Assembly (NCBI GenBank): GCA_030278955.1
Contig: JAOANR010000014.1
Span: 28,781,453-28,845,452 of the forward strand
Source: Hygrophila difformis
Taxonomy: Eukaryota > Streptophyta > Magnoliopsida > Lamiales > Acanthaceae
DNA length: 64,000 nucleotides
Direction of reading: 5' to 3'
Position numbers and translations under genes: made by a program
The notes under the pieces: generated by a model
Databases searched by the model: none
What the model was told of the DNA's origin: nothing
Seen by the model: only the letters and a program-made list of their open reading frames with translations
In this document: positions 2,867 to 55,952 of the stretch, in pieces
How the letters are laid out: each line of letters starts with the position of its first letter
Numbering within the stretch: position 1 is the stretch's first letter

Positions 2867-3212
2867 CTTGGGGAAACAAACCCGCAAGAATTTAAACGCA
2901 TCCTAGGGAATTGAACCCGTAGGAATTAACACACGTCCTGGGGAATCGAACCCGCAGGAAAACAAACGATCGTCCTTGGGGAATCGAACCCGCAAGAACT
3001 CAAGTACATCCTAGGGAATTGAACCCATAGGAATCAACACACATCCTGGGGAATCGAACCCGCAGGAAAACAAACGATCGCCCTTGGGGAATCGAACCCG
3101 CAAGAACTCAAATACATCCTAGGGAATTGAACCCATAGGAATCAACACACATCCTGGGGAATCGAACCCGCAGGAAATCACACAATCGCCCTTGGGGAAT
3201 CAAACCCGCAAG
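2867..3212. repeat. higher-order tandem repeat of ~36-bp hairpin monomers
   Basis: About ten monomers built around GGGAATCGAACCC. They occur in three classes in a fixed order, giving an exact 108-bp higher-order period: monomers of the same class start at 2937, 3045 and 3153. Each monomer has matching ends: CCTG...CAGG, CTTG...CAAG or CCTA...TAGG. The ends differ between classes but stay complementary. Confidence 0.9.
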
Positions 3213-4266: not shown

Positions 4267-5777
4267 CACTATCTAGGGTCTGAATACTTCCTATCCACGT
4301 CCTCCTTTCTCCGGTTTGTTCGTCGGAAAGTGATCGGAAGGCAAGAACACAAGAGAATATGGGGTTTTCGGTTTGAGAGAAGTTTGAGAGTTTAGAGGTG
4401 GTTTGGAGGCTATAAAAATTCGAAAATTAGGGTTAGGGAGCAGCCTAATATCGTCCCAATATCATTCCATAGCCCGGGATTGAGTTTCCAAAGTCGGGGG
4501 TCGAAAATATGGCAAGAAAATCATCGGGACGCGTTGTTGCCGAATTCTGGGGGTGTCACGCGCCCTTGGCGCGCACCTAGGCTAAAGACCGCGCGGCCAG
4601 CGCGCGGCCTCCGCCTGGACCTCGGTCCGGGCGGGTCCGTGCGATCCGACCGGGCCTTTTCTCCTCTCCTTCGGACTTCTGTGCTCCTACGTTTTCGGGC
4701 TCGATTTTTCAGGTCATTCTCGGATTATAAATTCTTAACTTCAATTTATTCTGACTTAAATTGATTTCATGTTCGAAATCTTAAGTCCGTCGGTTTCGGA
4801 TTTGTCGGCTTCTAATTCGCGTCTTTTGGCTCCCGTGCAATAATTTATCTAATTAACTTATTTCCGACTTCACGGGTTCTTGGAATTAAAATTCTTTTCT
4901 TACTTGAATTTAGTTCCAATTCTTTTGACTCGATTTCATGGAATGTCTTCGGGCTTCCTTTCCCTCCTTTATTCCATTTTGAATTTTTGAATCTATCGGC
5001 GTTTCATTTCCGAGCAATAATTTATTGTGTTAAATTATTTTCTTCTTCTAGGAGATATTTCAACCTTGATTTGATTAAGAAATAAATTTTATTCCTTTGG
5101 ACGCCGATAAAAATCCCGGGTATTACAGATTATGTAGTCGAACTTGTTGTGCGTTTTTCTATCTCTTGTGGTCAAAAATAATCTTTGGTAAAAACATAAA
5201 AGTTGTAGATAAATGTCTTAAGAATATGCCTGTAAAATTTCGTGAACTTTCCTTAACATTTGAATCTTCAAATTGACCCAAACAGCTTGTGTTTTTGGAA
5301 AGAAAATCTTGACAGATTTTATCCAAACTTGATGAACGAAACTGATTTAATCCGTAAGGAATTAACATAATTTACCTATAATAAAACTTGTTTATTTTGA
5401 TGTGTTCTAAGTGCCTGTAAAATTTCATAAATCTTGGAGTTCATTTGCTAGGTCGAAAATGAGATTTAAAAACAGTGCGCCGTTACCGGTAAACTAACAG
5501 ATTTTGAGTTTTGAAAAGATTGTGAAATTCGACTTGTTTCCTTAAAACATGAAAGTTGTTCGTAAAAGTGTTTTTGAGCTATTGAGTAAAATTTCAGAAA
5601 TTTGACTTTGAAATGAATTTTTAAATTAAAAAGGCGTAACCTGTGATGAATTGGATTTTTCGAACTTGAGAAAACTCGAACTGTGAAATGCGGTATCGAA
5701 TCTTTTTGTACGACAAAACTTGAACTTTCGAAAAATCCCGTTCACTAGGCTGAGCCGATCTTCATACAATTATCTTT

Positions 5778-6133
5778 GAGACTGCCTCGTTAGTGGTCTC
5801 CCTACTATCTGAGATTGCCTCGTTAGTGATCTACTTACTAAGCCAAAACGGCAATTGTGCACATGACCTGCCAAAACGGCAGTCGATATACACGCCTGTC
5901 AAATTGACAGTAGATACACACGGCTTGCCAAAATGGCAATCGATACACACGACTTGCCAAAATGGCAATCGATACACACGGCTTGCCAAAATGGCAATCG
6001 ATACACACGGCTTGCCGGAATGGCAATCGAGATACATGGCTAGCCAAAACGGCAGTCAATACTGATATGGCTGCGGCCGCCGGTTCACCGGCTAACTGAT
6101 TTTGACTATTGAGATTGCCTCGTTAGTGATCTC
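5778..6133 (+). repeat. three scattered hairpins with core TGCCTCGTTAGTG
   Basis: GAGAC-TGCCTCGTTAGTG-GTCTC at 5778-5800, GAGAT-core-ATCT at about 5811-5832, and GAGAT-core-ATCTC at 6111-6133. In element sense these are the same hairpins as the arrays in the A LTRs, which links the two LTR families. Confidence 0.8.
5868..6057. repeat. 29-bp tandem repeat, each unit an inverted repeat
   Basis: About seven units of roughly 29 bp. Each contains a short palindrome with a small A-rich loop: CTGCC-AAAAC-GGCAG, CTGTCA-AAT-TGACAG, then several TTGCCA-AAA-TGGCAA. The stems differ between units but remain paired. The C and D LTRs carry only one such palindrome (about 13848-13860 and 49812-49825). Confidence 0.85.
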
Positions 6134-6986
6134 CCTTGTGTGGTGTCCTCTTCTTAGTTATCGAGATAAAACTTTAAAAGACTTGTGGACGTATTTAATT
6201 AAGTTGTATTTACTTATCACGCTTTTAAATTTTGCTTTTTAATTGTGTCATTAAATTATGTATTCTAGCCTCGTATAATTAATTTTGCTTTTCCGCTGCA
6301 AGTTAAATTATGAATTTTTAATATTTTAATTGAGCCTGAGTAAAAGTATAATTTTTAAATTAATTAAATAATTTGAAAAACCCCTTTATTGTTACGTTAG
6401 GGATTAACTTACTCAGTATTTTATATACTGATAAAACCATTGTTTATATTTCTATTACAGTGTACGGAGCATGATCATGCATCGAGGGATCACTTGGGAC
6501 ATTTAGTTATTTATTTTACATGACTTGCATACGGACTTGGTAACCCGAGTTTTGGCCATGTCGGCCATATCTTTAAATTTCCACTGCAATTTCCACATTT
6601 GAGCCATCGCATGGCGAGTGGGTTACACGCGGCCCGTTTTAGTGTGGTATTGGTCAAATTGGCCCTAAATTAGGCCCGAATGCCTATTGGTAGCCTAATT
6701 TCATAATTCAATCTTTAGTGGCTCAAAAGTGAATTTCCTGCCTATTGATGGCCTAAAAAATTATTTATCTCTATTATTATTTTAAGCAATTCCGGACTTG
6801 TTTTTTTAAAAGATTTTCCAATACCCATAGCCTTGCATCTCTTTAGCAAGCTCGGAGAATCCGTGTCTTGCTAGACAGGTGTGGCGGTGGCATCCCGGCC
6901 TGGGTTATCAAATCCGGAGTGTTACAGAAACCGCATGGATAGCGTGCACCCCCTGCACCTGCGCTTTTGGGTTTCACGTTTTGGGC

Positions 6987-6994: not shown

Positions 6995-8830
6995 GCTCGT
7001 TTCTAAGCTGATTTGGGAGTTCCACCTGTCAAAACGTCCAGAATTTTGTCACGTTTCTAAATATCTTTTTCTCCATATCTTTTCATTCATCACCTGGATG
7101 CACAAATCTTGCTAAAATCTTGGGATATCGCGCAAATCTTCTGGCTGATTCATATCTTCTGCAAACCGATATATAAATAACACGACTACAAGCCAATTGA
7201 AGAGTTCCCAATCATTCAATAATTTCAGAAAATCTCCTCCAACTCTCATATCTTCCCATCCATCATCCAGGCAAAGAGAAGAGCAAGTCGAAGGCAATCC
7301 AGTGGAGATCTACACCGAACTTTCTTCACCAGTTGTATCACAGACTTTAACACCACCATTTTCCCTAAAGGTACAACGGAAGCAAAGTGCCGGAACAACG
7401 GGCTAGTGCTACCGCCACGTATTTCGGGCTGTCTGAAATCTAAGGCTATCATATATACTTGCATAAAATCAGAGTTGAATGTATATGCTAACTACTTTCC
7501 GGACAAGCTAGCATATAATTCGCACAGAAGCTTATAATACTGTAAAAGTATAAAATAAGCTTAATAAAATTGTTTGGTTGTATAACAAAAATGGAGGAAC
7601 ACATTCCTTAATGAGCTCAACGATAATAATGGAATAAATCCATGAAAGTTTTAATTTAAAAGAGGTTGTCTACCTCGTATTTCAAAAATATGGTTAAGCG
7701 CGAAATGCATTATTTAAAACAGTAGAGCCCAGTATTTGTAAATGGGATAAGACCCAAATATTTGTTCATGCTTGATAAATAATTTTCTATGCCAAGTAAA
7801 ATATTTTTATCCCAAAGGGGATTTAAAATATACATTTTTCTTGAACAATACCCCAAACTGCGCACGTGCAAAAGATGCTCTATCGAACCTTGCAGATCTC
7901 AAAACTTGAAACAAAATGGTTAAAAGTGTAGAGTCAGTGAAAACAATCGGTGAGTAAGTAGACGTTTACTCCCGAAGAATGTAGGGTTACAGAAATAATT
8001 TGAAAACAACAGTTATGGTAATGGTATGCTAAAACGAGAATTAATTTACGCACAGACAAAATCCATATAAATCTAAACCCGGGAAAGATAATATGACACT
8101 ATGCGTTACCAAGAAATAAATTTCTCAGCAATCAGAATGTGCAGGTTACCCGCTGTAGGGCCCAAATCTCACATACGTTCAAGGGTTGTGGTGGAGGTAC
8201 GCACATGGAATCAGGTAGGTGGTATCATGCCAACGTCCCCATGTAGCTTTGGACTGCTTAAAACCGGTGGTCTAAAGCCCCGGGTAGCTTTGAACTGCTT
8301 ACAACCGGTAGAGGTGATCCGACCCTGTACACAGATCCACCCCGTAACAGTAGGATCCTCAAAAACAAGGATTTATTGCAGAAATTAAATAAGCACAGTA
8401 AAATGACATACCAATATTCCAGAAAGCAGTAGGGAGCTATAAGCATAACTTTAAAAGTAATAAAGCAATTTTTAATTTATGCTTAAGCTAAAATAATTTT
8501 GGATTACTCCAAAAATTAAAAATCTACTTACAGTCACCGGAGATGGAATAGATACAACACATGCACAGGCAAGGACATCTATTCTTTTACGGCTACCTGA
8601 CTAAAAAAAATTTTAATATTAGCTTAGTATGCTGTAATAGTATTTTAGCAGAATTAATAACTAAAATTTTCCAACTTAGTAAAACTTACCAGAATACTCT
8701 CACGGACTAGCTATCTATACTAGATCTTACTGAGCTCCAAAATTCCTCTGTAACAGGCGGCAAAAAGAAAAAAACGAATTTAAGGGTGAGAGGAAGAAAA
8801 TGGCGTGTGAAATGGGAAGGAGGAGGGCGG

Positions 8831-14049: not shown

Positions 14050-16846
14050 TGTAACACCCCGGATTTGATAACCCAGGACGGAATGTCACCGCCACATCTC
14101 CCTAGCAAGACACGGCTTCCCGAGCTCACTAAGGAAATGCAAGGCTTGTGGGTATGGAAAAGATTTAAAACATTTCAAGATTTAGTCCGGAAATTTATAA
14201 CACTTAATTTAAAATACGATAGTAGTAATCATCATGCGCGAAAAATTAATAGAGTAAATGCAGCGGAAAGTAAATCACGGCCAACATGGCCAAATCCTCG
14301 GGTTTAACAGACCCGGTAAAAACAGTACGATGCAGAATTTAAAATGTCCGTAATGATTTCCCCCAAGTGCATATGCAATGCTTCACTCGACATACTCTGT
14401 AAAAGAAAAATGACAACGGTTTATCAGTATAAAAATATACCGAGTAAGTTAATCCCTAACTAACAATTTAAGGGGTCCCATGAGTTCAAATCCAAAGATT
14501 TTTACCTTTTCATGCATTCATTTAAAACCCATATTTTATTCGCAGCGGAAAAACATGATTAATTTATCAAGGACGAAAATGCATAATTTTAGAAGACTAA
14601 ATTTTTAAAGGCAGAATTTAAAGGCATAACTTAATGATGATATTTAAATGCGTAATTTAAAAATATGGTAAATCGGATTTAAGCGTAATTAACACTCACA
14701 CCAGTCTTTTATAATTTATCCCGCAAACTAAGAAGAGGTACACCATACCGGGAGATCACTAACGAGGCAATCTCAACATAGGACCACTAACGAGGCAGTC
14801 CACAACAATGGGAGACCACTAACGAGGCAGTCTCAAAAGATAGTAGGACCACTAACGAGGCGATCCAAAACACAGCGCACGAGATCACTAACGAGGCAAT
14901 CTCAGATAATAAGAAGACCACTAACAAGGCAGTCTCAAAGATAATGATTAGCATGAAGATCGGCTCAGCCTAGTGCACGGGATTTTTCGAAAGTTCGTAT
15001 TTCAAGTGATCAAAAGGTTCGATATCGCGTTTCATAGTTCGAGTTTTCTCTAGTTCGAAAAATCCGGTTTGACGCAGTTTGCGCCTTCCTTGATAAAAAA
15101 TTCGTTTTCGCACCAAAAATTCTGAAATTTACACAGTAGCTCAAAAACACACACACAAACAACTTTCATGTTTTAAGTTTTTGGAAATAAGGTTTCGAAG
15201 TGAGTCAAAATTTGAGTTCTTTACAAAAGATAATTTCTGTCTCAAAAACTGATTTCGTCACAGGTTCGTGCGACACCGATTAAAAATTCAATTCAAAGCC
15301 AATTGATCCGAAATTTTTACAGAAGATACAAAACACATTAAGGAACAACTTTCATCTTTTAAGAAATTTGAAATAATGAATTTTAGGTGTTCAAAAATCG
15401 ACCACAACACGCTGTACACGCGCGGACTAAAAAGGTAGTTTTAATCAGTTCTGAATTCGGCCGTTTTGACATATCATGAACTCCAAAATCCACGAAATTT
15501 ATATGCATAATCTAGACACATTTATCTACAACTTTTGTTTAGAAATGCAAAGTTAAATCATTCTAAAAACGGATGAAAAACGTGCATCAAGTCGAGTAAT
15601 GAAATCTGAAAACGGTTTCAAACGTTCGGTTTGTCACAGAAAGTTTACGGCGAGATTTGCGATAGCAAATCTTAATGTCAATGACTGAAATTTGGTCACA
15701 AGATAGATTAAAGTCTTAGAAACAAAGTTTATGTTGAAAAGTGTTCGGTTTGAATTCCCGAAGGTCGAGTTTTAGGCGAGTTTTTGAACTTGGACGAAAA
15801 TAGGGTTTTCGAAAAGCGGTTTTCGTTACGGGTGTAGATCTCGAGTTTTAAACAACAATAAACCACAAAAATTTGTGAGTAAGGTCTTAACTTACTTAGT
15901 TAGAGAATAGGGTCGCTGGATTGGGTTTCCGGACGTCCTAGGGTCACGACGAACGGCCAACTTCTCCGATAGCTTTTTGTTCGTTTTCCGACGTGAAATC
16001 GTAGTAAGGAAAAAGTGTTAGAATCCGAGTTTTGGAGACTTATGGACGGATGGAACACTATATTAAGACTTACCAAGGTTCTATGAGGCAGTGGCTCAGT
16101 CCCGTTTGCCTCGTCGTCGCCGGAATGTTCGCCGGAAAGTTTCATCGGGAGAGTTTGGCTTGGAGAGGAAGTTTGTGAGTATTGTGGGGATTGGTTTATG
16201 TGGGATTAGGGCTTTTGAGGCTCCCCAGCCGCCCTTAAGCCTTCCTTAAGGCTGGAATTCGGTTTCCCTCGAAGGGAATTGTAATTTAGGCAAGAAAATC
16301 ACCCCCGAATGGAAAGATTACACCTTCAGCTCTTCTGGCGCGGAGGTGGCGCGCACCCATGCCTATGGCCGCGCGGAGCATGTGTGCCAGGCCTGGCGTC
16401 GCGACGCCTTCGTCCGCGCGGTGGCCGCGCGGCGGCGCGCGGCGGGCGCGGGCCGGACCGGCCGGTTCGGCGGTTCGCGCGTTCCGTCGGGTCTTTCCTT
16501 GCTTTCCTCTATCGGTTTCTACCCCCTATGTGTTAGCTCGACTCCTCGGGTCGTCTCCGGTTCGGAATCTTTACCTTAAGCTTGTTACAAGTTCGGCTTA
16601 TCGCTCGTAACATTTCCGTGTCCTAATTAGTATAGTCTAACTTGGTTCCAACTCCTCCTATCGTCCTTGTGATCGATCTTGTGATTTATTTCGTGATTTA
16701 TTTTGTGATTTATTTCGTGATTTATTTTGTGATTTATTTCGTTACTGAACTTAGAAATTAGTTCCAAGCTGCCTACGTACCCTGTGAAGGGATCAAGTCA
16801 TGACGTAGTTCAAAACAATTTGAATTTGTTTTTCTCGGGTGTTACA
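14050..16846 (-). repeat. LTR1 of tandem A (3' LTR of A1)
   Basis: 2797 bp, TGTAACA...TGTTACA. By eye it is closer to LTR2 than to LTR3. It carries the hairpin array (14752-14936), two splice-donor-like sites (plus 16072-16073 and 15894-15895, minus sense), a short leader ORF starting MKLSGEH, a GC-rich block (16340-16480) and a 12-bp repeat GTGATTTATTTY (about 16680-16740). Confidence 0.92.
14752..14936. repeat. covarying hairpin array in LTR1
   Basis: Six units with the core CACTAACGAGGCA between complementary arms: GAGAT/ATCTC, GGAC/GTCC, GAGAC/GTCTC, GGA/TCC (weaker), GAGAT/ATCTC, AGAC/GTCT. The spacing is about 30-35 bp. Confidence 0.9.
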
Positions 16847-16887
16847 TCCTCCCCCCCTTAAGAATACAGTTATGTCCCCATAACTGT
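16847..16887 (-). promoter_or_regulatory. A1 polypurine tract and hairpin overlapping the pol stop
   Basis: In element sense hairpin AGTTATG-GGGA-CATAACT (within 16866-16887) then CTTAAGGGGGGGAGGA (16847-16862) directly before the LTR start TGTAACACCCG. The hairpin overlaps the last codons of pol. No second tract is present in this family. Confidence 0.85.
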
Positions 16888-18198
16888 GGCCGGTTCATCT
16901 TGGAAGAGGGTAGGGTAACGTTGTTTCATGTCGGCCTCCAACTCCCACGTTGCCGTCTCCGTCTCGTGGTTGGACCAAAGGACCTTGACCATTCTCACGG
17001 TCTTATTCCTCGTTACTCTCTCCTTTGTGTCAAGTATTCGCACCGGAACTTCCTCATAACTTAGGTCATCCTCAAATTCAACTTCTTCCGGTTGGAGTAC
17101 ATGGGTCGGATCGTGCACATACTTCTTCAATTGGGAGACGTGGAATACGTCGTGAACACGAGCAAACTGTGGTGGCAACGCTAGCCGATATGCGAGACTT
17201 CCCACTCTTTCCAGGATTTCATACGGCCCTATGTACCGTGGGCTCAGTTTCCCTCGCTTGCCGAAGCGCATCACACCCTTCATTGGTGATACCTTTAGCA
17301 TGACTTTATCGCCGACCTGAAATTCCAAGTCTTTTCGTCTCACGTCCGCGTAACTCTTTTGCCGGTCCTGAGCGGCTTTCATCTTTCCTTGGATAATCTT
17401 GATTTGTTGAGCCATGTCCTCCACAAGTTGTGGTCCCACTACTACTGCCTTGTCGTTCTCTTCCCAGCTTAATGGGCTTCGGCACCTACGTCCATACAGT
17501 GCCTCGAAGGGTGCCATGCCGATACTGGCATGGTAACTGTTGTTGTAGGAAAACTCTATCAAGGGTAGATGACTCTCCCAATTCCCCTTAAATTCTAGCA
17601 CACATGCCCGCAGCATGTCCTCCAGTGTTTGGATTGTTCGCTCTGTCTGCCCGTCCGTCATGGGATGGAACGCGGTACTCATCTTTATTTGCGTACCGAG
17701 AGCTTCCTGCAGTTTGGTCCAGAACTGAGAGACAAATCTACTGTCTCTATCTGAGATAATGTCGTGTGGTACTCAATGCCGGCGTACCACATTGTCGACA
17801 TACGCTCTTGCCAATTGGTCCATCGACCAAGTATCCTTCATTGGGACAAATATGGCGGTTTTTGTCAATCTATCCACGATCACCCAGATTTTATTCATCC
17901 CCTTCGGTGAGCGTGGTAACCCCGAAACAAAATCCATTGAGATGCTATCCCATTTCCAGCTTGGGATCTCTAATGGTTGCATTAGTCCTAGGGGTTTGTG
18001 TCGTACTGCCTTGATCTTCTGGCAGGTGAAGCATCTTGCCACAAACTCGGCTACCTCTCTCTTCATGTTCGGCCACCAGTAGTTCTTCTTCAAGTCCTTG
18101 TATAGCTTGTCCCCTCCGGGGTGAACCGAGTAAGGGGTGTAATGCCCTCCTCCATCACCCTTTTCTTCAGATCCGCGGATTCCCGTGGTATGCACCAC
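16870..18198 (-). pseudogene. pol: A1 integrase and chromodomain, broken
   Basis: C-terminal part of Gag-Pol. Integrase inserts the cDNA into the genome. Visible are the CFTC half of the zinc-binding region, SMDFVSGLP (first catalytic Asp), [18 protein letters not shown] (catalytic Glu), the GPYEI (GPY/F) motif, and a C-terminal chromodomain ([16 protein letters not shown]) that in this group targets heterochromatin. An in-frame TGA at 17773-17775 splits the integrase core. The upstream join to RNase H is lost by a one-base frameshift near 18135. Both lesions are shared with A2. Confidence 0.88.
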
Positions 18199-19259
18199 CT
18201 CCCCTTGAAGCGGATACTTCCATCCTCATGAATTTTGAAATCCATTGCCTTTCCTTCGGAAATGCCTCTCCTGATTTCTTTCAACTTCTCGTCACCCGGT
18301 TGGGCGAGCCGTATCTCGTCGAATATTGTCGGTCCCACTACCATCGCAGTGACGACCTCGGTTACCGTGCCAGGATGTACCAGCTCTAGACTCAATTTCG
18401 CCAAGTCCTTGTACAATTCGGATGGTATCACAAGTGGGTCCGCGACATGTTGAGTTTTTCGATTCAAGGCGTCGGCCACGACGTTGGCCTTCCCTCCGTG
18501 ATACGCGATCTCCAAGTCATAGTCCTTAATCAGTTCTAACCATCTCCTCTGCCTCAAATTCAGCTCTTTTTGCGTGAATATATACTTGAGGCTCTTATGG
18601 TCGGTGAACATTCGGCACCTCCGCCCATAGAGATAGTGTCTCCAAATCTTTAAGGCGAACAAGACCGCGGCCAACTCCAGGTCGTGCGTCGGGTAGTTTT
18701 CCTCATGTGGTTTTAGTTGGCGAGATGCGTATGCTATAACCTTTTGATCTTGCATTAGCACACATCCTAGTCCCTCCTTCGAGGCGTCACTGTACACCTC
18801 GAAGTCTCCATCCTCTGATGGTAATGTCAGTACTGGCGCCGTGGTAAGTCTTTTCTTCAGTTCCTGGAATGCGGCTTCACACTCGCTGGTCCAGTCATAC
18901 TTCGTCCCTTTCTTCAACAATTGAGTCAACGGGCGGGCAATTTTCGAGAAATCCTTTACAAATCGCCTATAGTATCCCGCCAATCCAAGAAAGCTCCTTA
19001 TCTCCGTTGGATTCTTCGGCGGCACCCACTCGGTCACTGCCGAGATCTTTGCTGGGTCTACTGCCACTCCGTTGGCGGATACTATATGCCCGAGAAATGC
19101 CACTTCCTTTAACCAGAAGTCGCACTTGGACAGTTTACCATACAGTTGGTTTGCTCGTAAGATCCGTAGCACTCTGTGTAAGTGCTCGGAATGTTCCTCT
19201 TCACCTTTCGAGTAGATCAAGATGTCATCTATGAACACCACCACGCATTGATCTAACAA
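18090..19259 (-). pseudogene. pol: A1 reverse transcriptase C-terminus and RNase H
   Basis: Begins just after a TGA stop (19263-19265) and contains the reverse-transcriptase active site [11 protein letters not shown], the thumb region ([17 protein letters not shown]), and RNase H with DASKEGLG (Asp), LELAAV (Glu) and TDHKSLKYI (Asp). It then runs toward the integrase zinc region before shifting frame near 18135 and ending at 18090. It is followed in the other frame by the integrase segment ending at 16870. Confidence 0.9.
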
Positions 19260-19262
19260 TTC

Positions 19263-20093
19263 TCAAAGTACGTTATTCACGAGATTCATGAACATGGCTG
19301 GGGCGTTTGTTAGCCCAAAAGATAGCACCGTGAACTCGTAGTGTCCATAGCGAGTCATGAACACCGTCTTTGGGATGTCCTTTTCAGCGATCCTCAATGG
19401 ATGATATCCCGAGCATAAGTCGATCTTTGAGAATACCGTAGCTCCCTTTAGCTGATCGAACAAATCTTCGATCCGGGGCAACGGGTACTTGTTTTTGACG
19501 GTAACTTGATTGAGTCCTCTATAGTCGATGCATAGTCGTAACCCTCCGTCCTTCTTTTTGACGAACAAGACCGGTGCTCCCCATGGGAACGTGCTCGGTC
19601 TGATGTATCCCTTCTCTAGCAACTCCTCGAGTTGCTCCTTTAGTTCCTTCATTTCCATTGGCGCCATGCGATAAGGAGCCTTCGAAACGGGCTCCGTCCC
19701 CGGGATGAGGTCTATTGTGAATTCAATGTCTCTCTTGGGTGGCATACCGGGAACGTCTTCAGGGAACACATCTGGGTATTCCCTCACCACTGGGATGTCA
19801 TCGATCTTGACTCCCTCAGCTTCCAGGTTGTGAATGTAGCATGCGTATAACGCGTAACCCTTCCGCACTAAGCTGCATATCTTGAGGGCGTTGACTATTT
19901 TGTTAGACTTCTTAGGGGGTTGGGAGTAGAAGATAACTTTCCTCCCCCTATTCTTTGATAGTGTGATCTTTTGCTTTTGGCATTCAATCACGGCCTTATA
20001 ACGGGTTAGCCAATCCATCCCTAGTATGACGTCGAAGTCTCTGACGTCGAATTCTACCAAGTTTGCGAAAAATTCTACGTTTTTTATTACCAC
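19263..20093 (-). pseudogene. pol: A1 protease C-terminus and reverse transcriptase N-terminus
   Basis: Contains [11 protein letters not shown] from the retroviral-type aspartic protease, the linker [16 protein letters not shown], and reverse-transcriptase blocks [29 protein letters not shown] and VFSKIDL. It ends in a TGA immediately upstream of the FIDD active-site block. The same TGA is present in A2, whereas D has an Arg codon there. It is separated from the upstream Gag/protease frame by a one-base loss near 20133 found only in A1. Confidence 0.9.
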
Positions 20094-21235
20094 AGGTATT
20101 CTGTTATAATGCTTAGAGCAGGTATTACTTCTCCCGAAGGCAGTTGGATTCCTAAGCTAATCATTACGCACTTAGGTAGATCTAGTTCAGCTACAACCCT
20201 CGAAGATAATATGGAGCAACTGGCTCCGGAATCAAATAAAACTCTAAGCGGAGTACTTAGGACATGAAAGGTACCTGCCACCACATCACCCTGCGCAGGT
20301 ATGTCAGCCTGGTTGATCACGTTCAACCTTCCCATCGGCCTCCCCTGATTGGCCGGCTGGTTCTGATTCGGATTTGCGTTCTGTTGCTGGTTTGGAGGGC
20401 GCTGGTTCGGGTTCGGAGGGGGCCGATACCCTTGATTGTTGCCGTTCCTGACTCCTTGATTGAACGGCTCATTGGGTCCAATGACCAAATCTTCTCTCTT
20501 TGTGATATTCTCGAGCCGGGTTCGACATTCCTCCCTCATGTGACCCATGCGGCCGCACCGGAAACATTCGCCCACCTGAGGAAATCTCCTCACCAGGTGC
20601 AGCCTGCCGCACCTCGGACAGGGTGGCACTCGCCCTCCTTGGTTGAAATTCCGACCATTGTTGTTCTGAACATTCCCGTTCGGCCCTCGCCGAAAGTTGT
20701 CCCCACCAGCAGTATTGCCCGTCCTATTGTCCCGGTTTCTCTTGTCTGGTCCCTGTACCCCTCGGCTAGATTCTCCTGCAGTCTTTCTCTTTAGCTGTTG
20801 TACTCGTGCGACTGCCACCGCACGGTCGTAGACAGCTTGTAAGTCTTGGTAGTTAACTCCGGTGATCACCTCCCGAATCGACAAATTCAACCCCATTTTG
20901 AATTTCTGCGCCTTCTCCCCGTCTGTGCGTACCATCCGAGGCACAAATCTCACCAGTTCCTTAAATCGAGCATAGTATTCTTGAACGGTTTTCTCCCCTT
21001 GTTTCAGGGATGAGAACTCTTCGTACAGTGCTGCCTTAGTACTCATTGGGTAGAAGCGCTCCCGGAGTAACTCCATGAACTCGTTCCACGAGTACGGTTC
21101 GTCGTCTTCGCCAAGTTTCCCCTGAGTAGCTTGCCACCATTCGTTGGCCTCGCCACCCAGATAGTACGAGGCCACGTGAACCTTCTCCCCTTCCGGGCAT
21201 CTCACCGCATTCAGTAATTTGTCGAAAGTCCTCAA
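20087..21235 (-). pseudogene. gag: A1 Gag C-terminal part and protease N-terminus
   Basis: Carries the Gag core ([21 protein letters not shown]), two knuckles (CPRCGRLHLVRRF, with the final Cys replaced by Phe, and an intact [14 protein letters not shown]), an Asn/Pro/Gln-rich linker, and the protease active site [10 protein letters not shown]. The upstream break is a stop at about 21270; the downstream break is a one-base frameshift near 20133. Confidence 0.9.
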
Positions 21236-21271
21236 CCATTCCTCAAGCTTAGATGGATCCTCCTCCCCTAC

Positions 21272-21568
21272 TTAGTAGGGAGGTCGGTAGGGGTTTACCG
21301 AAGCCAGGTAATTGATCCTTGCTTCCGGCGGGGGTGCCGCGGCAGCTCCGCCCTGGTTAACGTAAGCATTGCCCAGTGCGATGAGTAGTTCCTCCATGTT
21401 CCTCATTCGCCCTTCCGCAGGGTTGGGCATCGGGCCCGTTGGGTTTGGCGCCTCAACGTTAGGTGATTGCTCATTGGGTTGTCCTGGTGTGTCGTGGGTG
21501 TTGGGGGTGGCAGGGAAGGTCATTCCTCGTCCTCTAGGTGCCATCCTGTTATCACCATACGAGCTCAA
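21272..21568 (-). pseudogene. gag: A1 Gag N-terminus
   Basis: About 98 residues up to YRPPY, cut by TAA where A2 has a Tyr codon. The likely true start is the ninth codon (MAPRGRG, at 21544), which matches the Gag starts of the gag-only element and D. The protein continues in the same frame after the stop. Confidence 0.85.
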
Positions 21569-21969
21569 GTAGGTTTAGAGTTCTGGGGATTTGATGGAGT
21601 GTTGGGAGAAAATGCTTTGCTAGATTGAGCGATGCCTACTAATAGTTGGTTAAGATTTGCATCTATTCGTTCAATCATTTATGTTAAGGGTGTAAAGTTT
21701 GAAGCGTCGAGACCCTGAGTTTTAGGATTTAGGGTTTTAGGTACTTTGCCGATTTGTCGTGCGTATGTTGCTTGTTTGTTGTTGTCTCGTTCCATTGGTT
21801 TGTTGAGTTTCAATGAAATAAAACTTGAAGATTGCGCATAGAATAGATGCTTGTGAACTTTATTGTTTAGTAGGGAACTTTAATCGGTACAAACGATAGG
21901 AATCAAAATGCTAAGGATAGTTCGGGAAAATAGAAAAGGAGAACAATAGGAATAATGTATCAAAAATCT

Positions 21970-22291
21970 CTAATCCTGAGGAGGATAGGTGGTCGGGTCC
22001 TCCATGGGGTCATCCTCATCACTCGATTCCTCGATGGTGCCCGTGCCAAGGGGCCCATGGAACACTGGGCTGGCTGGCCAACTGGGCCCAGCAGCAGGAG
22101 CAGGATCAACGATAGCAACTGGAGTTTGGACGGCTGCAGGGACAGCGACAGGATCAATAACGGGGCTAGCTACAGGAGGAGTTCCCGGGTTGAGAGGGGC
22201 AGGTGGAAGCAGATCATCCTTCAGTTGATGCAGTTGATGTCCCAAGACCCCTCATTAGTAGGTTGATCATGTTCACGTTTGGGGCGGCCAT
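21970..22291 (-). pseudogene. A1 pre-gag accessory ORF, shortened
   Basis: Starts at 22291 with MAAPNVNM, like the MAEPNANM start in D, but soon reaches a stop. The C-terminal half is open in another frame from 22245, with a Pro/Ala-rich part and the tail IEESSDEDDPMED shared with C and D. The coiled-coil middle present in C and D is missing. The function is unknown. Confidence 0.6.
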
Positions 22292-22635
22292 CTATTGTTA
22301 ACAAGGTAGGTTAAGGTTAGAATATGTTTTAGGCAAGATTAGTTATGCACGAATTTAAATCTATATGCAACATGCAAGTGCAAGTCCCCCTTTTCCCCAT
22401 TTAAAAATGCAATCTATCCATTTATTTAAAATAAATCTACTTCATGGATAAGAATAATAGTTGGGCCTCTATAGTGGGCCAAAAATCTAATATTTCTTTT
22501 GGCTAAGATTTTGGGTTATGTAAAAACAAGCGTTGGGCTAAAATAATACTAGTAGTCAAATAATTTAAAAATAATATTTGGGTTTTAAAAATAATGGTTT
22601 AAAATAAAAGTAGTAGCTTTAAAAAAAATTTCCGG

Positions 22636-22647
22636 GCTCTGATACCA
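22636..22647 (-). promoter_or_regulatory. A1 primer-binding site
   Basis: TGGTATCAGAGC in element sense, three bases after the LTR2 end. Complementary to initiator Met tRNA. Confidence 0.9.
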
Positions 22648-22650
22648 ACT

Positions 22651-25448
22651 TGTAACACCCCGGATTTGATAACCCAGGGCGGGATGTCACCGCCACATCT
22701 CCCTAGCAAGACACGGCTTCCCGAGCTCACTAAGGAAATGCAAGGCTTGTGGGTATGGAAAAGATTTAAAACATTTCAAGATTTAGTCCGGAAATTTATA
22801 ATACTGAATTTAAAATATGATAGTAGTAATCATCATGCGCGAAAAATTAATAGAGTAAATGCAGTGGAAAGTAAATCACGGCCAACATGGCCAAATCCTC
22901 GGGTTTAACAGACCCGGTAAAAACAGTACGATGCAGAATTTAAAATGTCCGTAATGATTTCCCCCAAGTGCATATGCAATGCTTCACTCGACATACTCTG
23001 TAAAAGAAAAATGACAACGGTTTATCAGTATAAAAATATACCGAGTAAGTTAATCCCTAACTAACAATTTAAGGGGTCCCATGAGTTCAAATCCAAAGAT
23101 TTTTACCTTTTCATGCATTCATTTAAAACCCATATTTTATTCGCAGCGGAAAAACATGATTAATTTATCAAGGACGAAAATGCATAATTTTAGAAGACTA
23201 AATTTTTAAAGGCGGAATTTAAAGGCATAACTTAATGATGAAATTTAAATGCGTAATTTAAAAACATGATAAATCGGATTTAAGCGTAACTAACACTCAC
23301 ACCAGTCTTTTATAATTTATCCCGCAAACTAAGAAGAGGTACACTATACCGGGAGATCACTAACGAGGCAATCTCAACATAGGACCACTAACGAGGCAGT
23401 CCACAACAATGGGAGACCACTAACGAGGCAGTCTCAAAAGATAGTAGGACCACTAACGAGGCGATCCAAAACACAGCGCACGAGATCACTAACGAGGCAA
23501 TCTCAGATAATAAGAAGACCACTAACAAGGCAGTCTCAAAGATAATGATTAGCATGAAGATCGGCTCAGCCTAGTGCACGGGATTTTTCGAAAGTTCGTA
23601 TTTCAAGTGATCAAAAGGTTCGATATCGCGTTTCATAGTTCGAGTTTTCTCTAGTTCGAAAAATCCGGTTTGACGCAGTTTGCGCCTTCCTTGATTAAAA
23701 ATTCGTTTTCGCACCAAAAATTCTGAAATTTACACAGTAGCTCAAAAACACACACACGAACAACTTTCATGTTTTAAGTTTTTGGAAATAAGGTTTCGAA
23801 GTGAGTCAAAATTTGAGTTCTTTACAAAAGATAATTTCTGTCTCAAAAACTGATTTCGTCACAGGTTCGTGCGACACCGATTAAAAATTCAATTCAAAGC
23901 CAATTGATCCGAAATTTTTACAGAAGATACAAAACACATTAAGGAACAACTTTCATCTTTTAAGAAATTTGAAATAATGAATTTTAGGTGTTCAAAAATC
24001 GACCACAACACGCTGTACACGCGCGGACTAAAAAGGTAGTTTTAATCAGTTCTGAATTCGGCCGTTTTGACATATCATGAACTCCAAAATCCACGAAATT
24101 TATATGCATAATCTAGACACATTTATCTACAACTTTTGTTTAGAAATGCAAAGTTAAATCATTCTAAAAACGGATGAAAAACGTGCATCAAGTCGAGTAA
24201 TGAAATCTGAAAACGGTTTCAAACGTTCGGTTTGTCACAGAAAGTTTACGGCGAGATTTGCGATAGCAAATCTTAATGTCAATGACTGAAATTTGGTCAC
24301 AAGATAGATTAAAGTCTTAGAAACAAAGTTTATGTTGAAAAGTGTTCGGTTTGAATTCCCGAAGGTCGAGTTTTAGGCGAGTTTTTGAAATTGAACGAAA
24401 ATAGGGTTTTCGAAAAGCGGTTTTCGTTACGGGTGTAGATCTCGAGTTTTAAACAACAATAAACCACAAAAATTTGTGAGTAAGGTCTTAACTTACTTAG
24501 TTAGAGAATAGGGTCGCTGGATTGGGTTTCCGGACGTCCTAGGGTCACGACGAACGACCAACTTCTCCGATAGCTTTTTGTTCGTTTTCCGACGTGAAAT
24601 CGTAGTAAGGAAAAAGTGTTAGAATCCGAGTTTTGGAGACTTATGGACGGATGGAACACTATATTAAGACTTACCAAGGTTCTATGAGGCAGTGGCTCAG
24701 TCCCGTTTGCCTCGTCGTCGCCGGAATGTTCGCCGGAAAGTTTCATCGGGAGAGTTTGGCTTGGAGAGGAAGTTTGTGAGTATTGTGGGGATTGGTTTCT
24801 GTGGGATTAGGGCTTTTGAGGCTCCCCAGCCGCCCTTAAGCCTTCCTTAAGGCTGGAATTCGGTTTCCCTCGAAGGGAATTGTAATTTAGGCAAGAAAAT
24901 CACCCCCGAATGGAAAGATTACACCTTCAGCTCTTCTGGCGCGGAGGTGGCGCGAACCCATGCCTATGGCCGCGCGGAGCATGCGTGCCAGGCCTGGCGT
25001 CGCGACGCCTTCGTCCGCGCGGTGGCCGCGCGGCGGCGCGCGGCGGGCGCGGGCCGGACCGGCCGGTTCGGCGGTTCGCGCGTTCCGTCGGGTCTTTCCT
25101 TTCTTTCCTCTATCGGTTTTCTACCCCCTACGTGTTAGCTCGACTCCTCGGGTCGTCTCCGGTTCGGAATCTTTACCTTAAGCTTGTTACGAGTTCGGCT
25201 TATCGCTCGTAACATTTCCGTGTCCTAATTAGTATAGTCTAACTTGGTTCCAACTCCTCCTATCGTCCTTGTGATCGATCTTGTGATTTATTTCGTGATT
25301 TATTTTGTGATTTATTTCGTGATTTATTTTGTGATTTATTTCGTTACTGAACTTAGAAATTAGTTCCAAGCTGCCTACGTACCCTGTGAAGGGATCAAGT
25401 CATGACGTAGTTCAAAACAATTTGAATTTGTTTTTCTCGGGTGTTACA
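22651..25448 (-). repeat. LTR2 of tandem A, shared between A1 (5') and A2 (3')
   Basis: 2798 bp, TGTAACA...TGTTACA, with a primer-binding site on one side and a polypurine tract on the other, so it serves both internal regions. It is almost identical by eye to LTR1. Confidence 0.92.
23353..23537. repeat. covarying hairpin array in LTR2
   Basis: Same six-unit array with core CACTAACGAGGCA as at 14752. Confidence 0.9.
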
Positions 25449-25489
25449 TCCTCCCCCCCTTAAGAATACAGTTATGTCCCCATAACTGT
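25449..25489 (-). promoter_or_regulatory. A2 polypurine tract and hairpin
   Basis: Same layout as 16847-16887: purine tract at 25449-25464, hairpin at 25468-25489 overlapping the pol stop. Confidence 0.85.
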
Positions 25490-26164
25490 GGCCGGTTCAT
25501 CTTGGAAGAGGGTAGGGTAACGTTGTTTCATGTCGGCCTCCAACTCCCACGTTGCCGTCTCCGTCTCGTGGTTGGACCAAAGGACCTTGACCATTCTCAC
25601 GGTCTTGTTCCTCGTTACTCTCTCCTTTGTGTCAAGTATTCGCACCGGAACTTCCTCATAACTTAGGTCATCCTCAAATTCAACTTCTTCCGGTTGGACT
25701 ACATGGGTCGGATCGTGCACATACTTCTTCAATTGGGAGACGTGGAATACGTCGTGAACACGAGCAAACTGTGGTGGCAACGCTAGCCGATATGCGAGAC
25801 TTCCCACTCTTTCCAGGATTTCATACGGCCCTATGTACCGTGGGCTCAGTTTCCCTCGCTTGCCGAAGCGCATCACACCCTTCATTGGTGATACATTTAG
25901 CATGACTTTATCGCCGACCTGAAATTCCAAGTCTTTTCGTCTCACGTCCGCGTAACTCTTTTGCCGGTCCTGAGCGGCTTTCATCTTTCCTTGGATAATC
26001 TTGATTTGTTGAGCCATGTCCTCCACAAGTTGTGGTCCCACTACTACTGCCTTGTCGTTCTCTTCCCAGCTTAATGGGCTTCGGCACCTACGTCCATACA
26101 GTGCCTCGAAGGGTGCCATGCCGATACTGGCATGGTAACTGTTGTTGTAGGAAAACTCTATCAA
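25472..26164 (-). pseudogene. pol: A2 integrase C-terminus and chromodomain
   Basis: Contains [19 protein letters not shown], the GPY/F motif and the C-terminal chromodomain ([16 protein letters not shown]), ending TTVMGT. It is cut off from the integrase core by a one-base loss near 26184 that A1 lacks. Confidence 0.88.
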
Positions 26165-26373
26165 GGGTAGATGACTCTCCCAATCCCCTTAAATTCTAGC
26201 ACACATGCCCGCAGCATGTCCTCCAGTGTTTGGATTGTTCGCTCTGTCTGCCCGTCCGTCATGGGATGGAACGCGGTACTCATCTTAATTTGCGTACCGA
26301 GAGCTTCCTGCAGTTTGGTCCAGAACTGAGAGACAAATCTACTGTCTCTATCTGAGATAATGTCGTGTGGTAC

Positions 26374-26799
26374 TCAATGCCGGCGTACCACATTGTCGAC
26401 ATACGCTCTTGCCAATTGGTCCATCGACCAAGTATCCTTCATTGGGACAAATATGGCGGTTTTTGTCAATCTATCCACGATCACCCAGATTTTATTCATC
26501 CCCTTCGGTGAGCGTGGTAACCCCGAAACAAAATCCATTGAGATGCTATCCCATTTCCAGCTTGGGATCTCTAATGGTTGCATTAGTCCTAGGGGTTTGT
26601 GTCGTACTGCCTTGATCTTCTGGCAGGTGAAGCATCTTGCCACAAACTCGGCTACCTCTCTCTTCATGTTCGGCCACCAGTAGTTCTTCTTCAAGTCCTT
26701 GTATAGCTTGTCCCCTCCGGGGTGAACCGAGTAAGGGGTGTAATGCCCTCCTCCATCACCCTTTTCTTCAGATCCGCGGATTCCCGTGGTATGCACCAC
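26374..26799 (-). pseudogene. pol: A2 integrase N-terminal half
   Basis: Zinc-region [13 protein letters not shown] (catalytic Asp) and [16 protein letters not shown]. It ends in the same TGA as A1, just before the [13 protein letters not shown] block. It overlaps the previous frame because of the frameshift near 26736 shared with A1. Confidence 0.88.
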
Positions 26800-27860
26800 C
26801 TCCCCTTGAAGCGGATACTTCCATCCTCATGAATTTTGAAATCCATTGCCTTTCCTTCGGAAATGCCTCTCCTGATTTCTTTCAACTTCTCGTCACCCGG
26901 TTGGGCGAGCCGTATCTCGTCGAATATTGTCGGTCCCACTACCATCGCAGTGACGACCTCGGTTACCGTGCCAGGATGTACCAGCTCTAGACTCAATTTC
27001 GCCAAGTCCTTGTACAATTCGGATGGTATCACAAGTGGGTCCGCGACATGTTGAGTTTTTCGATTCAAGGCGTCGGCCACGACGTTGGCCTTCCCTCCGT
27101 GATACGCGATCTCCAAGTCATAGTCCTTAATCAGTTCTAACCATCTCCTATGCCTCAAATTCAGCTCTTTTTGCGTGAATATATACTTGAGGCTCTTATG
27201 GTCGGTGAACATTCGGCACCTCCGCCCATAGAGATAGTGTCTCCAAATCTTTAAGGCGAACAAGACCGCGGCCAACTCCAGGTCGTGCGTCGGGTAGTTT
27301 TCCTCATGTGGTTTTAGTTGGCGAGATGCGTATGCTATAACCTTTTGATCTTGCATTAGCACGCATCCTAGTCCCTCCTTCGAGGCGTCACTGTACACCT
27401 CGAAGTCTCCATCCTCTGATGGTAATGTCAGTACTGGCGCCGTGGTAAGTCTTTTCTTCAGTTCCTGGAATGCGGCTTCACACTCGCTGGTCCAGTCATA
27501 CTTCGTCCCTTTCTTCAACAATTGAGTCAACGGGCGGGCAATTTTCGAGAAATCCTTTACAAATCGCCTATAGTATCCCGCCAATCCAAGAAAGCTCCTT
27601 ATCTCCGTTGGATTCTTCGGCGGCACCCACTCGGTCACTGCCGAGATCTTTGCTGGGTCTACTGCCACTCCGTTGGCGGATACTATATGCCCGAGAAATG
27701 CCACTTCCTTTAACCAGAAGTCGCACTTGGACAGTTTACCATACAGTTGGTTTGCTCGTAAGATCCCTAGCACTCTGTGTAAGTGCTCGGAATGTTCCTC
27801 TTCACCTTTCGAGTAGATCAAGATGTCATCTATGAACACCACCACGCATTGATCTAACAA
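26691..27860 (-). pseudogene. pol: A2 reverse transcriptase C-terminus and RNase H
   Basis: Same segment as A1 18090-19259, with [10 protein letters not shown], the RNase H residues ([19 protein letters not shown]) and the same terminal frameshift. It follows the shared TGA at 27864-27866. Confidence 0.9.
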
Positions 27861-27863
27861 TTC

Positions 27864-30170: not shown

Positions 30171-30571
30171 GTAGGTTTAGAGTTCTGGGGATTTGATGGA
30201 GTGTTGGGAGAAAATGCTTTGCTAGATTGAGCGATGCCTACTAATAGTTGGTTAAGATTTGCATCTATTCGTTCAATCATTTATGTTAAGGGTGTAAAGT
30301 TTGAAGCGTCGAGACCCTGAGTTTTAGGATTTAGGGTTTTAGGTACTTTGCCGATTTGTCGTGCGTATGTTGCTTGTTTGTTGTTGTCTCGTTCAATTGG
30401 TTTGTTGAGTTTCAATGAAATAAAACTTGAAGATTGCGCATAGAATAGATGCTTGTGAACTTTATTGTTTAGTAGGGAACTTTAATCGGTACAAACGATA
30501 GGAATCAAAATGCTAAGGATAGTTCGGGAAAATAGAAAAGGAGAACAATAGGAATAATGTATCAAAAATCT

Positions 30572-30893
30572 CTAATCCTGAGGAGGATAGGTGGTCGGGT
30601 CCTCCATGGGGTCATCCTCATCACTCGATTCCTCGATGGTGCCCGTGCCAAGGGGCCCATGGAACACTGGGCTGGCTGGCCAACTGGGCCCAGCAGCAGG
30701 AGCAGGATCAACGATAGCAACTGGAGTTTGGACGGCTGCAGGGACAGCGACAGGATCAATAACGGGGCTAGCTACAGGAGGAGTTCCCGGGTTGAGAGGG
30801 GCAGGTGGAAGCAGATCATCCTTCAGTTGATGCAGTTGATGTCCCAAGACCCCTCATTAGTAGGTTGATCATGTTCACGTTTGGGGCGGCCAT
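30572..30893 (-). pseudogene. A2 pre-gag accessory ORF, shortened
   Basis: Same structure as A1 21970-22291: a start at 30893 that soon stops, and an open C-terminal half with the SSDEDD tail. Confidence 0.6.
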
Positions 30894-31237
30894 CTATTGT
30901 TAAAAAGGTAGGTTAAGGTTAGAATATGTTTTAGGCAAGATTAGTTATGCACGAATTTAAATCTATATGCAACATGCAAGTGCAAGTCCCCCTTTTCCCC
31001 ATTTAAAAATGCAATCTATCCATTTATTTAAAATAAATCTACTTCATGGATAAGAATAATAGTTGGGCCTCTATAGTGGGCCAAAAATCTAATATTTCTT
31101 TTGGCTAAGATTTTGGGTTATGTAAAAACAAGCGTTGGGCTAAAATAATACTAGTAGTCAAATAATTTAAAAATAATATTTGGGTTTTAAAAATAATGGT
31201 TTAAAATAATAGTAGTAGCTTTAAAAAAAATTTCCGG

Positions 31238-31249
31238 GCTCTGATACCA
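31238..31249 (-). promoter_or_regulatory. A2 primer-binding site
   Basis: TGGTATCAGAGC in element sense, three bases after the LTR3 end. Confidence 0.9.
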
Positions 31250-31252
31250 ACT

Positions 31253-34047
31253 TGTAACACCCCGGATTTGATAACCCAGGGCGGGATGTCACCGCCACAT
31301 CTCCCTAGCAAGACACGGCTTCCCGAGCTCACTAAGGAAATGCAAGGCTTGTGGGTATGGAAAAGATTTAAAACATTTCAAGATTTAGTCCGGAAATTTA
31401 TAATACTGAATTTAAAATATGATAGTAGTAATCATCATGCGCGAAAAATTAATAGAGTAAATGCAGTGGAAAGTAAATCACGGCCAACATGGCCAAATCC
31501 TCGGGTTTAACAGACCCGGTAAAAACAGTACGATGCAGAATTTAAAATGTCCGTAATGATTTCCCCCAAGTGCATATGCAATGCTTCACTCGACATACTC
31601 TGTAAAAGAAAAATGACAACGGTTTATCAGTATAAAAATATACCGAGTAAGTTAATCCCTAACTAACAATTTAAGGGGTCCCATGAGTTCAAATCCAAAG
31701 ATTTTTACCTTTTCATGCATTCATTTAAAACCCATATTTTATTCGCAGCGGAAAAACATGATTAATTTATCAAGGACGAAAATGCATAATTTTAGAAGAC
31801 TAAATTTTTAAAGGCGGAATTTAAAGGCATAACTTAATGATGAAATTTAAATGCGTAATTTAAAAACATGATAAATCGGATTTAAGCGTAACTAACACTC
31901 ACACCAGTCTTTTATAATTTATCCCGCAAACTAAGAAGAGGTACACCATACCGGGAGATCACTAACGAGGCAATCTCAACATAGGACCACTAACGAGGCA
32001 GTCCACAACAATGGGAGACCACTAACGAGGCAGTCTCAAAAGATAGTAGCACCACTAACGAGGCGATCCAAAACACAGCGCGCGAGATCACTAACGAGGC
32101 AATCTCAGATAATAAGGAGACCACTAACAAGGCAGTCTCAAAGATAATGATTAGCATGAAGATCGGCTCAGCCTAGTGCACGGAATTTTTCGAAAGTTCG
32201 TATTTCAAGTGATCAAAAGGTTCGATATCGCGTTTCATAGTTCGAGTTTTCTCTAGTTCGAAAAATCCGGTTTGACGCAGTTTGCGCCTTCCTTGATTAA
32301 AAATTCGTTTTCGCACCAAAAAATCTGAAATTTACCCAGTAGCTCAAAAACATACACACGAACAACTTTCATGTTTTAAGTTTTTGGAAATAAGGTTTCG
32401 AAGTGAGTCAAAATTTGAGTTCTTTACAAAAGATAATTTCTGTCTCAAAAACTGATTTCGTCACAGGTTCGTGCGACACCGATTAAAAATTCAATTCAAA
32501 GCCAATTGATCCGAAATTTTTACAGAAGATACAAAACACATTAAGGAACAACTTTCATGTTTTAAGAAATTGGAAATAATGAATTTTAGGTGTTCAAAAA
32601 TCGACCACAACACGCTGTACACGCGCGGACTAAAAAGGTAGTTTTAATCAGTTCTGAATTCGGCCGTTTTGACATAACAAATGAACTCCAAAATCCACGA
32701 AATTTTATATGCATAATCTAGACATATTTATCTACAACTTTTGTTTAGAAATGCAAAGTTAAATCATTCTAAAAACGGGTGAAAAACGTGCATCAAGTCG
32801 AGTAATGAAATCTAACAACGGTTTCAAACGTTCGGTTTGTCACAGAAAGTTTACGGCAAGATTTGGGATAGCAAATCTTAATGTCAATGGCTGAAATTTG
32901 GACACAAGATAGAATAAAGTCTTAGGATCAAAGTTTATGTTGAAAAGTTTTCGGTTTGAATTCCCGAAGGTCGAGTTTTTGGCGAGTTTTTGAAATTGGA
33001 CGAAAATAGGGTTTTCGAAAAGCGGTTTTCGTTACGGGTATAGATCTCGAGTTTTAAACAACAATAAACCATAAAAATTTGTGAGTAAGGTCTTAACTTA
33101 CTTAGTTAGAGAATAGAGTCGCTGGATTGGGTTTCCGGACGTCCTAGGGTCACGACGAACGGCCAACTTCTCCGATCGCTTTTTGTTCGTTTTCCGACGT
33201 GAAATCGTAGTAAGGAAAAAGTGTTAGAATCCGAGTTTTGGAGACTTATGGACGGATGGAACACTATATTAAGACTTACCAAGGTTCTATGAGGCAGTGG
33301 CTCAGTCCCGTTTGCCTCGTCGTCGCCGGAATGTTTGCCGGAAAGTTTCGTCGGGAGAGTTTGGCTTGGAGAGGAAGTTTGTGAGTATTGTGGGGATTGG
33401 TTTCTGTGGGATTAGGGCTTTTGAGGCTCCCCAGCCGCCCTTAAGCCTTCCTTAAGGCTGGAATTCGGTTTCCCTCGAAGGGAATTGTAATTTAGGCAAG
33501 AAAATCACCCCCGAATGGAAAGATTACACCTTCAGCTCCTCTGGCGCGGAGGTGGCGCGCACCCACGCCTATGGCCGCGCGGAGCACGCGTGCCAGGCCT
33601 GGCGTCGCGACGCCTTCGTCCGCGCGGTGGCCGAGCGGTGGGCGCGGGCCGGCCGGACCGGCTGGTTCGGCGGTTTGCGCGTTCCGTCGGGTCTTTCCTT
33701 GCTTTCCTCTATCGGTTTTCTACCCCCTATGTGTTAGCTCGACTCCTCGGGTCGTCTCCGGTTCGGAATCTTTACCTTAAGCTTGTTACGAGTTCGGCTT
33801 ATCGCTCGTAACATTTCTGTGTCCTAATTAGTCTAGTCTAACTTGGTTCCAACTCCTCCTATCGTCCTTGTGATCGATCTTGTGATTTATTTCGTGATTT
33901 ATTTTGTGATTTATTTCGTAATTTATTTTGTGATTTATTTCGTGACTGAACTTAGAAATTAGTTCCAAGCTGCCTACGTACCCTGTGAAGGGATCAAGTC
34001 ATGACGTAGTTCAAAACAATTTGAATTTGTTTTTCTCGGGTGTTACA
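31253..34047 (-). repeat. LTR3 of tandem A (5' LTR of the unit)
   Basis: 2795 bp. It is more diverged than LTR1 and LTR2 are from each other, with several substitutions and a shorter GC-rich block (33550-33680). It is followed by the AAAAA target-site copy. Confidence 0.92.
31955..32139. repeat. covarying hairpin array in LTR3
   Basis: Same array. The last unit reads GAGAC...GTCTC, extending the stem compared with LTR1 and LTR2. Confidence 0.9.
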
Positions 34048-50735: not shown

Positions 50736-50737
50736 AT

Positions 50738-50749
50738 TGGTATCAGAGC
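50738..50749 (+). promoter_or_regulatory. primer-binding site of copia G
   Basis: TGGTATCAGAGC, complementary to initiator Met tRNA. Confidence 0.93.
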
Positions 50750-50782
50750 AGGGCTCTAACGTTTAGCTGAGTCCGGTCCAAT

Positions 50783-53005: not shown

Positions 53006-53017
53006 AGGTGTGGGCAT

Positions 53018-55893: not shown

Positions 55894-55952
55894 TCGAACT
55901 CTGCAAGTTTCTCCCGAAAATTCCCCAATTCAAAATTCGAATTCCTCTTGCA

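Follow-up and report, generated by a model that had tools for sequence, protein, structure and literature searches.

Five hairpin types with compensatory changes share one slot in related plant retrotransposon LTRs

Beyond BARE and comparable elements, little is known of the way in which plant LTR elements separate RNA for translation from RNA for replication, or of how Gag recognises the latter. In BARE, replication is said to be limited to unspliced transcripts, and spliced RNA must be kept out of it (PMC3735527). Plant LTR elements are generally without introns, Ogre and EVADE being named as exceptions (PMC12786077, in the part cited). As far as the cited parts of these accounts go, BARE1 splices within gag, Ogre between ORFs, and EVADE removes its protease domain (PMC3735527, PMC12786077). 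A different kind of LTR signal is formed by the RM boxes of the Ty1/copia sireviruses: these form CpG islands, are located upstream of the TATA box, have a CGG-CCG core with little or no loop, and are read as DNA sites in the sections cited (PMC2829016).

The window analysed here (the whole stretch of 64,000 nucleotides, from the 915-Mb genome of Hygrophila difformis) is filled with nested LTR retrotransposons. On its minus strand, three near-identical LTRs of 2.8 kb (A1 to A3, Table 1) bracket two 5.8-kb internal regions. The ORFs of this A element match Retrotrans_gag, RVP_2, RVT_1, RT_RNaseH and the integrase C-terminal SH3_Tf2-1, i.e. Ty3/gypsy gag-pol domains are present; a chromodomain (Chromo) match, with E 0.00095 and 19.5 bits, was below the curated cut-off of 25.4. 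TTGGTATCAGAGC comes after the A LTR end, and the element is presumably a Tekay/Del-type chromovirus, judging by the LTR ends, PBS and LTR length. The closest named protein relatives are from plants (Smallanthus, Tanacetum, Ipomoea, Actinidia).

The three A LTRs and two internal regions are in tandem at one insertion site (14050-34047), with internal copies about 99% identical, an arrangement such as unequal recombination between LTRs would leave. Nested in a C-type LTR is a Ty1/copia element (49894-58854) that has long ORFs; its ORF at 55788-57626 gave a match to Transposase_32, which Pfam lists as a putative plant transposon protein. Searches of the window with ARAGORN (tRNA) and with Rfam at the gathering threshold gave no hits; IMG/VR returned nothing useful for the hairpin, the LTR end, the RT peptides or the LTR-PBS junction, and the C-type RT ORF matched three plasmid records, all at less than 60% identity.

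Table 1. Location of LTRs, hairpins and candidate splice signals in the window
Feature	Position	Strand	Remarks
LTR A1	14050..16846	-	2797 nt
LTR A2	22651..25448	-	2798 nt
LTR A3	31253..34047	-	2795 nt
LTR B	5129..6926	+	same slot as A; 5' part not seen in window
A-type array, LTR A1	14752..14936	-	six units
A-type array, LTR A2	23353..23537	-	six units
A-type array, LTR A3	31955..32139	-	six units, one stem pair broken
Two A-type units, LTR B	5778..5833 (5778-5800, 5811-5833)	+	
Third A-type unit, LTR B	6111..6133	+	
B-type array, LTR B	5840..6055	+	eight units
C-type hairpin, LTR B	6076..6092	+	
C-type hairpin, LTR C1	40989..41005	+	
Two C-type hairpins, LTR C2	58870-58886, 58917-58933	+	
Two C-type hairpins, LTR C3	13944-13960, 13987-14003	+	second has compensated pair
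D-type array	2867..3212	-	ten bulged hairpins
Candidate donor 1 (GT of GTAAGT), LTR A2	24673..24674	-	homologous 16072-16073, 33278-33279; sequence signal only
Candidate donor 2 (GT of GTAAGT), LTR A2	24495..24496	-	homologous 15894-15895, 33100-33101; sequence signal only
Candidate acceptor AG, LTR A2	22998..22999	-	homologous 14397-14398, 31600-31601; sequence signal only
Hairpin just 5' of branch-site-like CTGAT, LTR A2	23026..23043	-	homologous 14425-14442, 31628-31645
Long LTR-3'-end hairpin	14102-14132, 22703-22733, 31305-31335, 2243-2274, 35919-35950	-	
Long LTR-3'-end hairpin	6843-6874, 34576-34607, 41608-41639, 59406-59437	+	

The A-type hairpin and its variation

The arrays that the preliminary description had placed in the three A LTRs were confirmed in all of them. 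Each does have six units, but the core said to be common to the six is exact in four and carries one mismatch in two. With up to two mismatches allowed, the core gave 21 matches in the window, against a mean of 0.79 and a maximum of 4 in shuffles. Its exact form occurs 21,962 times in the genome, so that natural variants should suffice for a powerful covariation test across the genome.

Read on the element sense strand, a unit is GAGAY-UGC[CUCGUUA]GUG-RUCUC, with an 8-bp stem (five Watson-Crick pairs, then U-G, G-U and C-G) and a 7-nt loop; the two wobbles pair in sense only. The antisense unit was weaker by 2.4-5.4 kcal/mol in 15 unit folds out of 15, one of which (the third unit of A3) lacked the 8-bp stem in sense as well. 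Folded as a whole, the array reached -54.2 kcal/mol in sense (z -2.70, 2/200 shuffles as good) and at -31.7 kcal/mol in antisense (z -0.56, 61/200 shuffles as good). Only some of the units form their own hairpin in the whole-array fold, the rest pairing with distant units of the same type, which counts against a recognition of the array as RNA. When LTR A1 was scanned with 100-nt sliding z-scores, the slot was not among its seven lowest windows. A role as siRNA precursor was rejected as unlikely, since the stems are short (7-8 bp).

The eight distinct A units of the window have standard pairs in 96.7% of 61 pair cells; at two pairs, both partners change. Their covariation score was equalled in 1 of 500 shuffles; unlike the score, the count of doubly changed pairs (two) did not exceed that of the shuffles (mean 1.6), and slid registers of the alignment contained no double change. 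Two stem positions had been said to change as matched pairs: one is a C-G/U-A exchange, and the other, according to where the gap is put, is a paired A-U gain/loss or an A-U/G-C exchange. The longer last stem attributed to the third LTR was not upheld, as the pair concerned is G-C in A3 and, in sense, G-U in A1 and A2, so that the RNA stem is equally long; in A3 a single pair is broken, in the third unit as counted in sense. Twenty further stretches supplied 138 core-like matches, a few of them by chance, and all 41 sources together 196 core-like units (51 distinct, some being chance matches). This larger sample added no double changes, and we judge the statistical support for the A hairpin alone to be modest because it brought only the same few alleles.

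Few double changes, and most copies deriving from few alleles, would also fit a mostly neutral origin, in which hairpin repeats grow when replication or reverse transcription slips or switches template, and quasi-palindrome correction brings the arms into agreement without selection. The number of units does vary between LTRs (commonly 6 to 8 for A), and the D-type array described below has a 108-nt higher-order repeat. Correction should, however, erase the wobbles of the A stem, whereas among the 196 core-like units G-U is found at pair 6 in 150 and at pair 7 in 185; nor would a neutral process lead one to expect unrelated hairpin types to recur in one slot. We consider this origin somewhat unlikely.

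Five hairpin types in one slot

Related LTRs have one slot, located about 320-350 nt upstream of a branch-point/pyrimidine/AG signal, that is occupied by hairpins of five types, A to E. Every type shows one or more compensatory changes; for type C the change rests on a single unit, independent double changes are few per type, and the LTRs share ancestry. Loops vary from 3 to 13 nt across types when counted by the Watson-Crick arms. Several earlier statements have to be modified in this light. The A hairpin had been noted twice in LTR B, taken for a different LTR family. It is there, in three units rather than two; in the extra one (5811-5833) an end pair is broken. In the region of the array, LTRs A and B are homologous (82% over 299 columns, 68% over 399). 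The A array is likewise not a second, unrelated one: the A and B arrays share the slot and interleave, and types are mixed within single LTRs, which makes the A array a module of that slot. The claim of covarying hairpins thus stands in a broader form than originally made.

The B type is represented by 35 units in five arrays, with 14 distinct arm pairs (permutation p 0.028); the score of the eight window units alone was equalled in 10/500 shuffles. Its stems are conserved and its loops variable, which is odd if loops were recognised. Type C is GCCG..CGGC with one compensated unit, GTCG..CGAC. The bulged hairpins of type D have the stems CUUG/CAAG, CCUG/CAGG and CCUA/UAGG and mostly UUYRAUU loops; all of 42 cells are paired (100%) and none of 500 shuffles equalled the score, though the ten units follow a three-unit repeat and therefore represent few independent events. 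Adding four D units from L011, where D units are followed by C units, pair 2 is also found as A-U (100% of 63 cells, 1/500 shuffles). Type E (L046) comprises CUUG-u-GG..CC-CAAG and CUAG-u-GG..CC-CUAG, with 97.2% of 36 cells paired and 26/500 shuffles reaching the score, a count that left out two more E-like repeats per array, which fold differently. The E hairpins (L046:4313-4474 and 7912-8044, plus strand) have the bulged-pyrimidine architecture of D with another loop; four outer pairs, one bulge and inner G-C pairs are common to both types. A and B units occur together in LTR B, L014 and L029.

Of 30 LTR ends scanned for covarying pairs in the slot, 2 were too short, and 14 of the remaining 28 slots were flagged, compared with 5 of 560 shuffles. 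The fair count is 8 of 27, once five slots with AT-rich pairs only and one locus-end artefact (L034 minus 64) are removed; the null was lenient, as shuffles destroy tandem repeats, and the B array known from LTR B escaped detection. Some neighbouring LTR ends, e.g. L047 and L050, had no such array in the slot examined. Satellite DNA was rejected as an explanation, the hairpin units being confined to one LTR position.

Conserved stems with variable loops, as in B, resemble a spaced palindrome, and the units could be regulatory repeats acting as DNA, i.e. palindromic sites for transcription or chromatin factors comparable to Sirevirus RM boxes, with the D units resembling the B box of pol III. 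Several D units do contain GGTTCGATTCC, which we take to be the B-box core. Other D loops deviate from it: the GGTTCGANTCC core is not in all D units, several having TTCAATT, TTTGTTT or TTAGATT loops. Palindrome arrays are also present in Sirevirus LTRs, according to the part of the source cited (PMC2829016). Against such sites, the arms change together, unlike what is expected of a fixed half-site, the A stems need wobbles that pair on one strand only, and the slot is downstream of the likely promoter. A function as DNA is, in our opinion, unlikely.

The observations suggest that pairing occurs on sense-strand RNA. One-sided stem transitions, tallied by hand, gave G-U in sense 16 times and A-C five times (A 8:3, B 6:2, D 1:0, E 1:0); the two-sided binomial p of about 0.03 was calculated by hand and post hoc, with fixed wobble alleles left out, and the A events may include at least one duplicate (GAGAT...GTCTC in L045 and L046). 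This G-U excess, small and post hoc, favours sense RNA. The B array folds alike on both strands (z -4.15 and -3.97), and D units fold nearly as well on either.

An outside case was provided by a scan of genome contigs for the LTR-PBS junction, which returned a single contig, L001, from a Labilibacter assembly. It is probably plant contamination, because its protein matches those of the window (62% over 86 aa, 66% over 143 aa, 49% over 356 aa). A looser PBS pattern returned seven contigs, none of which matched four window retroelement proteins in tblastn; only L001 did. The L001 LTR has two tandem hairpins that differ at just four positions in 25 nt, and these four make up two compensated pairs; with two sequences only, 128/500 shuffles reach the score. 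L001 also contains about 5.6 tandem 19-nt palindromic repeats (L001:701-805), which fold much better in antisense (z -9.5) than in sense (z -3.2). This second array speaks against a general sense-strand rule.

A predicted intron within the LTR

Sequence signals predict a leader intron lying wholly inside the LTR; in A it would measure about 1.5 kb, and the array would be situated towards the 3' end of this intron. In the six LTRs compared, candidate donor 1 (GTAAG) is present in all and donor 2 (GTAAGT) in five, 177-182 nt apart. An acceptor-like AG is found about 329-347 nt before the LTR end, after a hairpin, CTGAY and a pyrimidine tract. This signature was met in 20 of 29 LTR ends, in none of 75 control windows and in none of 29 antisense windows; as the LTRs share ancestry, it shows conservation, not use. 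From the end of the array to the acceptor there are 353 nt in A2, 317 nt in C1 and 340 nt in D. The predicted intron has 30-37% GC, versus 43-54% just upstream and 38-42% downstream, and in the LTRs compared it is not T-richer than the downstream segment. Its length is 573 nt in F, where the signals are still present, versus 1350-1558 nt in the others (C2 and C3 were entered as joined pieces for these figures).

An array outside the transcribed part of the LTR would have spoken against the preliminary description. The A array lies downstream of the likely promoter, which was placed by eye upstream of donor 1, and between the predicted donors and acceptor, hence within the predicted leader intron, transcription itself being presumed. 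The hairpins might then control splicing by holding the 3' region of the intron, so that part of the RNA stays unspliced. Their constant distance from the predicted acceptor, which follows them after about 320-350 nt, and another hairpin beside the branch-site-like sequence would agree with this. The acceptor signature, however, is the same in LTRs that differ widely in hairpin type and copy number, and we find such a control quite improbable.

The hairpin preceding CTGAY (23026-23043 and 2557-2571 on the minus strand, 41320-41336 on the plus strand) shows a compensated change between families: its arms are CAGTAT/ATACTG in C, CGGTAT/ATACTG (one G-U) in A and CAGCA/TGCTG in D. A TATATA before the acceptor was rejected as a TATA box, D and L001 being without it there yet having CTGAY, pyrimidines and AG. 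Near the LTR 3' end, a long hairpin around TTAGCAAG...CTTGCTAG folds in 10 of the 10 LTR rows examined; its z-score is one of the lowest in F, G, B and C3, and in A, where one arm is TTAGTGAG, pairing is kept through wobbles.

Possible function and comparison with known systems

If the predicted intron is used, splicing would take the array out of the mRNA. Full-length genomic RNA would have to retain it, since the LTR cannot be rebuilt from spliced RNA. A structure limited to the intron would therefore mark exactly the RNA usable for reverse transcription. We tentatively propose, as a possibility still short of probable, that the array is a family-specific recognition element on intron-retaining RNA. 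The most likely reader of its repeated stems and loops would be Gag of the element itself, in packaging or dimerization; an export factor or a splicing repressor would be possible readers too. LTR families would exchange hairpin types in the slot. It is rather doubtful, in addition, that this modular, exchangeable and covarying array in a retained LTR intron amounts to a family-specific genome tag for Gag or an export factor, such that only unspliced RNA is packaged and cassette swaps let related or defective elements share or switch packaging identity. A slot of repeated, covarying, family-specific hairpins in a predicted LTR intron is in any case a directly testable candidate. A point against recognition comes from one plant satellite virus, in which proposed packaging hairpins had no discernible role in vivo, according to the part of the source cited (PMC6475782).

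The open-access literature, outside which most subscription papers lie, held no description of such arrays or of an LTR intron in this lineage. The packaging and dimerization structures of retroviruses and of yeast Ty1 and Ty3 are similar in that a structured 5' leader of the genomic RNA is the proposed place of recognition; the cited parts of these sources describe no repeated, family-exchanged hairpin array, and recognition is here something that we infer (PMC4974528, PMC5454406). The export elements of the mouse, the RTE of IAP and the MTE of musD, likened here by description, are also cis structures and would act on unspliced RNA, but are single structured elements in the part of the account cited (PMC12786077). 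With BARE1, Ogre and EVADE the present element would have in common more than one RNA form per element, while the cited parts of their accounts describe no intron inside the LTR (PMC3735527, PMC12786077). Of the known systems, the array of palindromic RM boxes in Sirevirus LTRs comes nearest, with its short symmetric and family-specific motifs, about 8-9 per LTR in the elements listed in the part cited (PMC2829016). Lineage and motif differ, and probably also position: the array described here belongs to elements with gypsy-type domains, probably lies downstream of the promoter, has loops of 3-13 nt and shows compensatory changes.
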